Shown here in pieces: positions 58,190 through 64,000 of a DNA stretch of 64,000 nucleotides. This DNA comes from Gammaproteobacteria bacterium (GTDB lineage Bacteria > Pseudomonadota > Gammaproteobacteria > HK1). Within the stretch, counting starts at the first letter, position 1; each line of letters opens with the position of its first letter. Under the pieces are notes generated by a model. The model was not told the origin of the DNA. It did no database searches and worked only from the letters and a program-made list of their open reading frames with translations. The translations under genes and the position numbers were made by a program. The stretch covers positions 1 through 64,000 of the forward strand of contig JAJDUQ010000189.1 of NCBI GenBank assembly GCA_022826505.1, read 5' to 3'.

Positions 58190-59299
<1,110 letters not shown>

Positions 59300-59463
59300 T
59301 CAACCGGTGGTTCGCGCTTTGCGCGCGCGAGGCATACGGAATTCGCAGGATGCCCGCCTGCGGGCGTCCGCGCTTGCGAGGCAGGAGAGCGATCTTCTCC
59401 GAGCGATCGTTTCATCTGACGTTGGTGCTTTGGACTTGCTCTCATTTTTCCAGAACAATTACT

Positions 59464-61821
59464 ATGTTAGACTCGATATCTCGAAACGGGATTGAAACCG
59501 TGGCCCAAGCGATACACGAGAAGGCGGGGTTCATCGGCTTGCTGCGAGGACCTCTGGCACGAGGTTCCCGCGAAGGCGCGCTGTTCGTCATCTCGGCGGT
59601 GGCCATTTATCTGCTCGTTTCGATCGCGAGCTATCACCCGGGAGATCCCGGATGGTCGAACGCGGGTCATGTCGAGAGGATTGCGAACCTGGGCGGCGTG
59701 GCGGGGGCGTGGATCGCCGACGTGCTGCTGTACCTGTTCGGGTTCATGGCGTACCTGTTTCCGGTGATGATCGGCTACGCGGGGTGGCTGGTCTATCGAG
59801 GCCTGAAGGCGGCGTCCGACGCGATCGACGTTCATCACGCGACGATCCGGGCCGCCGGATGCGTGGTCGCGGTGTGCACGGGTTGCGGTCTCGCGACCCT
59901 GCACTACCACGGCTCGGCAATGTTCCCGGTCGACGCGGGCGGAATCATCGGCACCATCGTCGGCAGCGGACTCGCGGGCGTGGTCAATCCAATCGGTGGC
60001 ACGCTGTTTCTCTTCGCCCTGTTCCTCACCGGAGTCACGCTGTTCACCGGATTGTCGTGGCTCGACGTCATGGACGTGACGGGGCGTTACACCATTGTGG
60101 CCGCGGAGCATGCGTACAGGCTTGGCCGGCAGGTGCGAAAACGCTGGCTCGCGGGCCGTCTCGAGCAGAAACGCGAGGTTCGCATCAAGGTCGGACGCAA
60201 ACGCGAGACCCGCCGCAAGCCTCCACGCATCGAGCCCGTGATTGCGAAGGTGGAGACGAGCGCACGCGTGGAAAAGGAGCGGCAGGTGCCTCTGTTCGAA
60301 CCGGCTCCCGGATCCGGAGCGTTGCCGCCTCTCGCGCTCCTCGACGAGCCGAAGCAGAAGCGCAAGATCGCTTCCGAGGATGCCCTCGAGGCAATTTCGC
60401 GCCAGGTCGAGCTCAAGCTCGCGGACTTCGGCATCGAGGCGGAGGTGGTGGCGGTGCACCCCGGCCCGGTCGTCACCCGATACGAGCTGCAGCTTGCCCC
60501 GGGACTCAAGGTGAGCCGCGTGACCAACCTGGCGAAGGACCTTGCCCGGTCCCTGTCGACCGTCAGTGTGCGCATCGTGGAGGTCATCCCCGGCAAGACC
60601 ACCATCGGTCTCGAGATTCCGAACGAGGAACGCGAGATCGTCGTGCTGAGCGACGTGCTCAAATCAAGCCAGTACGACACCGATGCGTCCCATCTCGCGC
60701 TCGGACTCGGCAAGGACATCTCGGGGCAGCCGGTGGTCGTGGATCTCGCGAGCATGCCCCATCTCCTGGTGGCGGGCACCACCGGTTCCGGCAAGTCCGT
60801 CGCCATCAACGCGATGATCCTGAGTCTGCTCTACAAGGCCTGCAGCTCCGACGTGCGGATGATCATGATCGATCCGAAGATGCTGGAGCTCTCGGTGTAC
60901 GAGGGCATCCCGCACCTCCTCGCGCCGGTGGTGACGGACATGAAGCACGCGTCGAATGCGCTTCGCTGGTGCGTCGTCGAGATGGACCGACGCTATCGGC
61001 TGATGTCGACGCTCGGCGTGCGCAACATCGGTGGCTACAACCGGAAGGTATGCGCTGCCGCCGACAGTGGCGAACCGATCAGGGATCCACTGTTTCAGCC
61101 GGATGGCGCGGACGGCGAGGCGCCGGTGCTCACGAAGCTCCCCTTCATCGTGGTCATCGTCGACGAACTGGCCGACATGATGATGCTGACCGGCAAGAAG
61201 GTCGAAGAGCTGATTGCGCGGTTGGCGCAGAAGGCACGAGCGGCGGGCATACACCTGATTCTTGCGACCCAGCGTCCGTCCGTGGACGTGATCACCGGAT
61301 TGATCAAGGCCAATATTCCCAGTCGGATCGCATTCCAGGTGTCGTCGAAAGTCGACTCCAGGACCATACTGGACCAGATGGGCGCGGAGCACCTGCTGGG
61401 CCACGGCGACATGCTGTACCTCGGCCCCGGGGTGGCGGCGCCGAGCCGGGTGCACGGAGCGTTCGTCGCCGACCACGAGGTCCACAAGGTGGTCAAGAGT
61501 CTCAAACGGGCGGGCAAGCCTGCATATCTGGAAGGGATTCTCGACGGCACCGCGATCGTCGATGCGGCGCCGGACGTCGGCTCCGCGGTTGAAGGGGGGA
61601 CGGACTCCGGTGCCGAGGCGGATCCGCTTTACGACCAGGCGGTCAGAATCGTGACCGAGACCCGCCGGGCGTCCATCTCGGGAGTTCAGCGTCGGCTCAA
61701 GATCGGGTACAACCGGGCGGCTCGCATGCTCGAGGAGATGGAGCACGCCGGTGTGGTTGGCCCGCTGCAGCCGAATGGAAGTCGCGAGGTCCTCGCACCG
61801 CCACCACCGCCCGCGGACTGA
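59464..61821 (+). CDS. ftsK: DNA translocase FtsK (start uncertain)
   Basis: 4-TM N-terminus; [21 protein letters not shown]-terminal gamma (winged-helix) domain. Confidence 0.96.
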
Positions 61822-61895: not shown

Positions 61896-62522
61896 ATGAT
61901 GTCGCGTCTTGGCGGATTCGTCGGAGTCTGGGTGCTCTCGCTGTCTTGCACTGCCGTGCTCGCGGATGCCGCCGGCCGGCTCGATGCCTACCTTTCCGGA
62001 CTCGACACCGTGTCGTCGCAATTCGAGCAACGGCTTTTCGACGAGCGTCGAAACCTCCTCGAGCAGGCTCGGGGCACGGTGCTGATCGATCGCCCGGGAC
62101 GCTTTCGGTTCGACTACACGGATCCGCCGCAGATCATCGTCGGGGACGGCGCGAGAGTCTGGATCTACGACCCGGATCTGGCCCAGGTCGTGGTCCGCGA
62201 TGTGGACGCCGCCCTCGGCTCGACGCCCGCGGTGCTGCTGTCCACCGATCGGCCGGTAGAGGAAGTCTTTCGGGTGGAGGCGCTCGAGATCGGGGGGAAT
62301 GTCGACGTATTCGCTCTTGAGCCGAAGGCCGAGGATGCGTCGTTCAGCCGCATCCGGCTGGCATTCGCCGACGGAGAGCTGCGGCGCATGGAACTCGTCG
62401 ATCAGTTCGGCCAGACGACGCTGATCTCGTTTCACGGTATCCGGCGGCAACCGGCGATTCCGCCCGATGCCTTCACGTTCACGCCCCCCGCCGGCGTCGA
62501 CGTCATCGATGACGATGGCTGA
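61896..62522 (+). CDS. lolA: Outer membrane lipoprotein carrier protein LolA
   Basis: Signal peptide; YLSGLDTVSSQFEQRLFDERRNLLEQARGTVLIDRPGRFRFDYTDPPQIIVGDGARVWIYDPDLAQVVVRDVD. Confidence 0.94.
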   Translation: MMSRLGGFVGVWVLSLSCTAVLADAAGRLDAYLSGLDTVSSQFEQRLFDERRNLLEQARGTVLIDRPGRFRFDYTDPPQIIVGDGARVWIYDPDLAQVVVRDVDAALGSTPAVLLSTDRPVEEVFRVEALEIGGNVDVFALEPKAEDASFSRIRLAFADGELRRMELVDQFGQTTLISFHGIRRQPAIPPDAFTFTPPAGVDVIDDDG

Positions 62523-62783
62523 ACCCGCTGGGCGGGTGGATAGACCCCGTTTCAGGGGACATTCCCGATGCAGAAGTATTGAGCCTCTTCGGTTCCAGGC
62601 TCCAAATTGCATTTCGAATTGAAACATGCTCCGCGCATCGGAATTCCGACTGAACCGAGTTGCAAAGAACGTACCCTTCCACCGAATATGTCGCATGACA
62701 CTTCGGGGCGCGGTGTCGATTCCAGTGTTGACGGCGGTCGATTGCGACCGGGTGCAACCAGAGCCGGCGGCGCACAGGACATC

Positions 62784-63944
62784 ATGAGAGCCGTCTATCT
62801 CGACTACAACGGATCGGCACCGCTCGATCCCCGCGTGGCCGAGATCATGGTTCCGATCCTGACGGATGGGATCGGGAACGCATCTTCGATACACCACTTC
62901 GGCCGCCAGCAGAGCGTTGCCGTCGATGAAGCCCGTGAGCTTGTTGCAGCCATGGTCGGCGGGCGCTCTTCGAACGTGGTGTTCACGGCCGGTGCGACCG
63001 AGGCCAACAATCTGGCTCTTCGAGGGGCAGTGGAAGGTGCTCTAGCCGACCGGCCCCGGATACTGATCTCCGCAGTCGAACACGCGTCGGTCCGACAGAC
63101 TGCGCGGTGGCTCGACGAGCACGGATTGACGAAGCTGGATGTCATCCCCGTGACCAACGCCGGCTTCGTCGATCTCGATGCATTGGAGTCGATGCTCGAC
63201 ACCGACGTGTTGCTGGTGTCGGTAATGGCGGCGAACAGCGAGACAGGGATACTGAACCCCGTGGAGGAGATCGCGAAGCGGACTCACGCTGTCGGTGCAC
63301 TGCTCCACTGTGATGCCACGCAGTCGGCGGGCCGATTGCCGTTCGATCTCGAACGGACCGGCGCCGACCTCGTATCCCTGAGCAGCCACAAGATTTGTGG
63401 CCCGACCGGTGTCGGTGCGCTTGTCGGGACACGACGCGGCTTGCGGCGGCTGCAGCCGATCATCCACGGTGGCGGGCATGAACATGGATTGCGGTCGGGT
63501 TCGCTGAATGTTGCCGGCATAGTGGGATTCGGGGCCGCCGCACGGATAGCCACCGATGAACGAACGTCGGAATCGGCGCGAGTCGCGAAGGCCCGTGACC
63601 GACTTACCGCTGCCCTGAAGTCGCGGCTCTCCCGCGTCCATGACATCGGAGACGTCACACGGCGTCTTCCGAACACGGCAAATGTCCGCTTCGAGGGTGC
63701 CGACGCGGAGGCGGTCGTGATTAACATGGGTCCCGTCGCGGTCTCGACGGGGAGTGCGTGCAGCTCCGGCTCGATCGAGCCGTCCGAGGTTCTCTTGGCC
63801 ATGGGAATCCCACGTGACGCGGCGTTCGAGTCAGTCAGATTCAGCCTGGGCCGCTTTACGACGAGGGAAGACGTCGAGCTAGCGGTGGAGAGCGCCGTCA
63901 CCGCCGTCGAGCATGTTCGGTACATGGCCCGGAGGAGTGCGTAA
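62784..63944 (+). CDS. Cysteine desulfurase, SspA/DndA-like (NifS family)
   Basis: VYLDYNGSAPLDPRVAEIMVP...GNASSIHHFGRQQ...FTAGATEANNLAL, SSHKICGPTGVG (PLP Lys), VSTGSACSSGSIEPSEVL (active-site Cys). Confidence 0.92.
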   Translation: MRAVYLDYNGSAPLDPRVAEIMVPILTDGIGNASSIHHFGRQQSVAVDEARELVAAMVGGRSSNVVFTAGATEANNLALRGAVEGALADRPRILISAVEHASVRQTARWLDEHGLTKLDVIPVTNAGFVDLDALESMLDTDVLLVSVMAANSETGILNPVEEIAKRTHAVGALLHCDATQSAGRLPFDLERTGADLVSLSSHKICGPTGVGALVGTRRGLRRLQPIIHGGGHEHGLRSGSLNVAGIVGFGAAARIATDERTSESARVAKARDRLTAALKSRLSRVHDIGDVTRRLPNTANVRFEGADAEAVVINMGPVAVSTGSACSSGSIEPSEVLLAMGIPRDAAFESVRFSLGRFTTREDVELAVESAVTAVEHVRYMARRSA

Positions 63945-64000
63945 TGCGGGTGGTCGATGCAGCCAAGCCAACGTTCGCCCGGCACGAGACGTTCCACCCG
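63944..64000 (+). CDS. N-terminal fragment of DUF4007/SspB-like protein, truncated by window end
   Basis: ATG overlaps upstream TAA by one base; reads MRVVDAAKPTFARHETFHP, similar to the DUF4007 N-terminal F.rHETFhpRygWL.K pattern; absent from the ORF track because of length. Confidence 0.55.
   Translation, partial: MRVVDAAKPTFARHETFHP

Follow-up and report, generated by a model that had tools for sequence, protein, structure and literature searches.

Genes at the locus

The window, that is the whole stretch of 64,000 bases analyzed here, covers bases 1 to 64000 of contig G000:C46 (67,082 bases), which extends approximately 3 kb beyond it. The source genome G000 comprises 6.2 Mb in 346 contigs with a bin contamination of 7.4%. 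Near the right end of the window the forward strand carries ftsK (59497-61821, the end of a reading frame spanning 59224-61821) as host context, followed by lolA (61896-62522), whose product is 82% identical to LolA of the same-genus genome G002. The host gene order trxB-ftsK-lolA-rarA matches that of E. coli. As the FtsK motor is 64% identical to its E. coli counterpart compared to 53-55% to the FtsK of the alphaproteobacterial carriers, we regard C46 as a gammaproteobacterial host contig. The final base of lolA, 62522, is also the point beyond which same-genus genomes are no longer similar, and the stretch 62523-62783 directly adjoining this left host flank forms the left end of the island described below. 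A pattern scan of these bases for a sigma-70-like promoter before sspA gave no match.

The gene sspA (62784-63944, forward strand) encodes a cysteine desulfurase of 386 residues, assigned by Pfam, PADLOC and motifs. It matches Aminotran_5 (3e-74) and the PADLOC SspA model (1.1e-127) over its full length, and contains both the PLP lysine (K203 in SSHK) and the catalytic cysteine (C326 in GSAC), the latter as described for SspA (PMC7188994). The protein scores under every NCBIfam cut-off for IscS, NifS and DndA. Since the SspA and DndA models give nearly equal scores (424 vs 412 bits), its naming rests on the neighbour genes. A sequence-only reading of the window had placed a NifS-family desulfurase after lolA, coupled by TAATG to a gene with 19 visible residues, and had guessed an Ssp phosphorothioation system. 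The next reading frame indeed begins with base 63944, which is also the final base of the sspA stop codon TAA, and its first 19 codons inside the window (63944-64000, forward strand) encode MRVVDAAKPTFARHETFHP.

Reading on along the contig confirmed the DUF4007 domain that had been anticipated for this gene. It continues to C46:64948 and encodes SspB with 334 residues (Pfam PF13182, DUF4007, 5.7e-84; PADLOC SspB, 1.7e-102), the nearest solved structure being SspB itself (6juf/6lb9, E 2.3e-66). The SspC-type ATPase expected next in line follows on the window's own contig: sspC (C46:64949-67082) is cut by the contig end, and the 711 residues preceding this end match the PADLOC model with 3.2e-199. 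On a small contig of the same bin, C301, which carries sspA-B-C-D, SspC is present at its full length of 1155 residues (PADLOC, 1015 bits) with an invariant Walker A core GPYGSGKS. Scores of such size for SspA, SspB and SspC are far beyond chance. The PAPS-reductase-like SspD, likewise expected, is complete on C301 (PADLOC SspD, 1e-107; motif SGGKDS), and its last codons open a further contig, C206. The desulfurase is followed by SspB and SspC and not by isc, suf or tRNA-thiolation genes, and no isc or suf partner was seen nearby, in agreement with the sequence-only reading. The Dnd-type alternative which this reading had left open was not borne out, as dndB, dndC, dndD and dndE were all missing from the locus and SspD matches the DndC model only weakly. 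The locus is supported by these gene assignments as an SspABCD DNA-phosphorothioation module of the ordinary kind.

An island between lolA and rarA

Contig C206 came to light when the DNA of G000 was searched with the locus of a close relative, L017. It opens in the tail of sspD, continues with genes for an SF2 helicase, a GHKL ATPase and a PLD-type protein, and then reaches rarA (with an MgsA_C domain) just 3' of the PLD gene. In the same-genus genomes G002 and G004 lolA directly adjoins rarA, as in E. coli. C46 on the lolA side and C206 on the rarA side thus flank one insertion, and the similarity to same-genus genomes, lost after lolA, restarts just before rarA on C206. Exact overlaps join the contigs: the tail of C46 shares approximately 100 bases with C301, and the tail of C301 shares 109 bases with the start of C206. 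These observations point to one island of approximately 11.8 kb inserted between lolA and rarA. An assembly gap of approximately 2.1 kb between C46 and C206, comprising the tail of sspC and most of sspD of the window copy and represented only by C301, is what weakens the local evidence most. The island ends share no att-like direct repeat, the longest common word being 10 bases. A transcription terminator considered after sspD on C301 was rejected, as the helicase gene already begins at this place.

The sspA-C DNA of C301 is 92.6% identical to that of the window, and C301 itself is 99% identical to L017, a contig of a MAG filed as Defluviicoccus. C301 may represent a second chromosomal copy, or it may come from another organism in the contaminated bin. 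The window's sspA-C is also 92.6% identical in DNA to L017. Compared to only 55% protein identity between the FtsK motors of the two hosts, and given the gammaproteobacterial gene order trxB-ftsK-lolA-rarA, this value indicates a recent horizontal transfer of the ssp genes from one class to another, provided that the L017 contig was binned correctly.

Identity to L017 is uneven along C46, C301 and C206, with 98-99% toward the end of sspC and in sspD, approximately 90% across sspA-B and 70-85% across the GHKL gene, which suggests recombination within the island. A stretch 5' of sspA in the relative (L017:3279-4199) is repeated on C209, C157, C27, C96, C173 and other contigs of G000 with up to 93% identity, which suggests a shared mobile element. 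Between the PLD gene and rarA, still within the right end of the island (approximately C206:29426-30004), lies a short reading frame beginning with MKRSVTIEYGDDVLLALGLTPEEFSEEARMFVAFKLHETGRLS, which by eye resembles a UPF0175-type antitoxin.

The helicase, the GHKL ATPase and the PLD-type protein

In place of the SspE-type effector that the sequence-only reading had expected, three genes (the triad) lie 3' of sspD. The first encodes the SF2 helicase of 541 residues and overlaps the sspD stop as GTGA, the second the GHKL ATPase of 646 residues, and the third the PLD-type protein of 301 residues. SspE was also rejected as a partner encoded elsewhere, since the DUF262 matches in the whole genome (C284, C28) reach at most 27 bits to SspE and are unlinked. 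Profiles built from related loci score the three C206 proteins at 731, 776 and 387 bits, respectively. Pfam assigns ResIII, DEAD and Helicase_C to close homologues of the helicase, HATPase_c_3 to those of the ATPase and a weak PLDc to those of the third protein. Among the PADLOC models the best matches of the triad proteins were only partial and low, and none of the three proteins reaches an NCBIfam cut-off. The motifs are intact in C206: I, II, III and VI of SF2 helicases; the N-box, G1, G2 and the S5 lysine (NNKQ) of GHKL ATPases; and HxK...GSxN of PLD proteins. The helicase is nearest to RadD/YejH and to type I restriction subunits.

A profile of the GHKL protein compared to solved structures gave MORC2, MORC4 and MORC3 as top matches (MORC2 with 1.2e-11). 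In the predicted structure (mean pLDDT 82) the ATPase part matches SMCHD1, MORC2, Hsp90 and MutL with TM-scores of 0.3-0.58, and the C-terminal remainder gave no clear fold match. For the S5 motif, 27 of 28 members show GhShhRxxRE[LIV]. The published MORC motif GhXhhpXXRhl is found in none of the 28 in its strict form, and in 27 if position 10 is relaxed to allow Glu. Because of this deviation by one position from the published motif (PMC2292703), we call the protein paraMORC-like and not MORC. Carriage of the GHKL gene by phages was rejected, as two phage records match it and both do so just in part.

The third protein has a single HxK...GSxN motif, of which H86, K88, S100 and N102 are invariant in 11 sequences, and the fold of its model (mean pLDDT 84) matches NucT, Zucchini and the PLD3/4 nucleases. 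By motif and model it is a predicted nuclease of the PLD superfamily.

Linkage of the triad to ssp genes

To relate the triad to the modification genes we used 399 genomes drawn evenly from the phylum. Outside the source genome the GHKL family has five strong matches (E 1e-123 or better), and all five lie in helicase-GHKL-PLD triads beside sspABCD; a sixth, weak match (1e-42) is without ssp. SspC occurs in 10 genomes of the draw besides the window's own, and half of these (5/10) have the triad (Fisher p = 3e-9). Among 72,556 plasmids, 12 records show a GHKL homologue covering 80% or more of the length, each time with ssp genes within approximately 12 kb (12/12, three of them by SspD match coordinates). 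SspD itself was met in only 93 of these plasmids. In a named genome collection 38 of the 80 closest SspD loci have the GHKL gene within the fetched stretch, where the 80 loci were picked by SspD similarity and do not constitute an unbiased sample. In 11 actinobacterial genomes the fetched stretch broke off at the GHKL gene, and in all 11 a PLD gene directly adjoins it. The triad ranges over proteobacteria, cyanobacteria, actinobacteria and Bacteroidota, and extends without the nuclease gene to thaumarchaea: two thaumarchaeal sspCD loci (L050 and L053, from Nitrosopumilus and Cenarchaeum MAGs) carry the helicase and GHKL genes with no PLD gene adjacent, which counts against the explanation given below. 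With three independent samples in agreement, co-localization in the sequences strongly supports a link of SspABCD with the triad.

In a phylogeny of 78 SspD proteins the GHKL partner label switches 17 times, at least 16 of them by well supported branches, and near-identical SspD proteins can have differing partners (L029 vs L036; L026 vs L030). The modification module is thus swapped among restriction modules, namely the triad, SspE and Pbe-like genes.

Comparison with named systems

The SspABCD-SspE systems of Vibrio cyclitrophicus, Streptomyces and E. coli 3234/A possess the same SspA-B-C-D module in the same order; they encode a DUF262/DUF1524 SspE, whereas the locus here has the three-gene triad between sspD and rarA. 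SspABCD-SspFGH from Vibrio anguillarum FF-93 (PMC8092258) likewise combines the modification module with a three-gene restriction module containing ATPases. The difference lies in the proteins: a Walker A motif is all that SspF shows, and the end of SspH resembles FtsK/SpoIIIE, compared to SF2 helicase, GHKL ATPase and PLD-type protein in the triad. No gene of the SspF or SspH type was found between sspD and rarA.

In the MORC/paraMORC operons reported by Iyer et al. in 2008 (PMC2292703), an ATPase with GHKL and S5 modules likewise accompanies an SF2 helicase and occasionally an HKD (PLD) phosphoesterase domain; looping or remodelling of DNA was proposed as their part in restriction. These published operons pair with DNA methylases, while the triad pairs with a module for backbone phosphorothioation. 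MZA resembles the locus in one protein: the MzaB model matches the ATPase domain in all 28 GHKL members scanned, although this match covers the N-terminal part only and scores 46-78 bits compared to an NCBIfam cut-off of 850, and the other two triad genes differ. DndCDEA-PbeABCD (PMC6459918) is a further restriction system linked to phosphorothioation (PT) that employs an SF2 helicase. It was described with Dnd modification genes, and Pbe-like genes also occur beside close sspABCD relatives of our locus; PbeA, however, scores just 65 bits to the triad helicase, and the SMC-like PbeC is absent here. In DISARM an SF2 helicase and a PLD-type protein (DrmC) are likewise part of a defence operon, but DrmA, DrmB and the methylase are absent here and the DrmC match amounts to 19 bits compared to a cut-off of 133.

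Proposed mechanism and alternative explanations

The gene composition, the intact motifs and the linkage of the island are established at the level of sequence. On this basis we consider it likely that the end of the window is the start of a horizontally acquired, phosphorothioation-based restriction-modification island, consisting of SspABCD and the triad and located between lolA and rarA. Sulfur supply by SspA, transfer by SspD, nicking by SspB, the ATPase of SspC and PT of one strand at CpsCA were described previously (PMC8092258, PMC7188994), and from family membership we infer the same roles for the proteins at this locus. SspA would draw sulfur from cysteine, and SspD, a PP-loop/PAPS-reductase-like ATP pyrophosphatase, would activate it and hand it on. 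SspB, the DUF4007 nickase, and the ATPase SspC could then open one DNA strand, at which the sulfur would be set into the backbone. The triad might restrict invading DNA with PT distinguishing self from non-self: the helicase and an ATP-gated GHKL clamp would inspect and remodel the DNA and, presumably in this order, permit the nuclease to act on DNA that lacks the sulfur mark, in an SspFGH-like manner.

We lean towards this mode, in which PT protects, on the indirect argument that no triad turned up apart from ssp genes, as would be expected if it was harmful to unmarked cells. By contrast, the PT-dependent PbeAC is solitary in 320 of 553 cases (PMC6459918). A triad activated by PT, as is SspE, is a somewhat less probable but still serious second mode.

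One could object that the locus is an ordinary SspABCD-SspE or SspABCD-SspFGH system and the triad an independent neighbour. Ssp loci are often part of defence islands, SspE occurs together with the triad in some relatives (e.g. L059, L079, L083 and L088), and an FtsK/SpoIIIE-domain (SspH-like) gene set is also found on one Agrobacterium plasmid. Here, neither SspE nor an FtsK-like gene lies between sspD and rarA, and the sole full-size DUF262 reading frame elsewhere in the genome scores 17 bits to SspE. An independent system should also be met on its own, yet among strong GHKL matches none of the five genomes and none of the 12 plasmids lacks ssp genes, and the overlap of sspD with the helicase gene argues against independence as well. 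We therefore regard this explanation as unlikely. An assembly chimera, in which lolA and the ssp genes of different organisms were joined in the bin, appears less probable again. The fragmentation and contamination of the bin, and the presence of C301 as a near-identical ssp contig of possibly other origin, speak for it; against it, lolA and rarA, neighbours in same-genus genomes, each join one end of the same island, and two independent chimeras with complementary ends on separately assembled contigs are unlikely. The FtsK comparison further marks C46 as gammaproteobacterial.

SspB-, SspC- and SspD-like proteins are also common to BREX type 4 (PMC12839542), where DUF4007 and PAPS-reductase proteins occur with BrxC, PglZ and BrxL, and SspC does match a BrxC model. 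The scores are in favor of Ssp, with 662-1015 bits for SspC models compared to 194-310 for BrxC, and 358 bits for SspD compared to 35 for BrxP. Moreover, PglZ and BrxL are absent from the sequenced island parts between lolA and rarA, and the gap, by comparison to C301, fits little beyond the sspC tail and sspD, which makes BREX a very improbable reading. Fainter still is the chance of a housekeeping NifS/IscS desulfurase serving Fe-S clusters or tRNA thiolation. SspA is homologous to IscS and NifS, but stays below the NCBIfam cut-offs mentioned above and is translationally coupled to DUF4007/SspB, with SspC following, and these downstream genes refute the housekeeping reading. The preferred reading remains the restriction-modification island of SspABCD and the triad.

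Novelty and potential significance

A survey from 2021 reported 2,211 of 2,678 sspBCD loci without sspE or sspFGH and suggested further restriction counterparts (PMC8092258). The triad, being neither SspE nor SspFGH, is by its genomic context a strong candidate for such an Ssp restriction partner. The open-access literature searched yielded neither a description of the triad as Ssp partner nor a published name for it. The idea of restriction in which GHKL ATPases cooperate with nucleases and SF2 helicases dates from 2008 (PMC2292703) and predates Ssp. On balance we are inclined to propose a widespread, unnamed third Ssp restriction module, whose helicase, MORC/MutL-like GHKL ATPase and PLD nuclease would sense whether the DNA backbone carries PT.

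If this is true, the triad would explain a large share of the sspBCD loci lacking SspE and SspFGH, and may thereby account for how many of the partnerless sulfur-marking systems fight viruses. Eukaryotic MORC-type GHKL ATPases act on chromatin. The proposed module would place a MORC-like ATPase in bacterial immunity, reading a DNA mark, and if confirmed would provide a bacterial setting in which MORC-type ATPases could be assayed directly on marked and unmarked DNA.

Other genes at related Ssp loci

Directly after sspD the triad is replaced by a Pbe-like module in L021, L025, L031, L034, L039-L042, L044, L048, L076 and others. This module contains a PbeA-like helicase, a PbeC/DndD-like SMC ATPase and a protein of 160 residues, and the loci often add a 755-residue protein in which a sigma-70 region 4 domain is present. 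Published reports mostly connect DndB to Dnd systems. We observed DndB/DGQHR-type genes (PF14072) in approximately 17 of the 80 sspABCD loci, sometimes together with an SNF2 helicase; carriers include L014, L019, L022, L029, L033, L039, L043, L045, L051, L060, L064 and L089. The Agrobacterium tumefaciens plasmid pAtCFBP7129b (L182/L134) combines sspABCD with both the SspH-like gene set and a helicase-GHKL pair, so that a single modification module may serve two restriction modules there.
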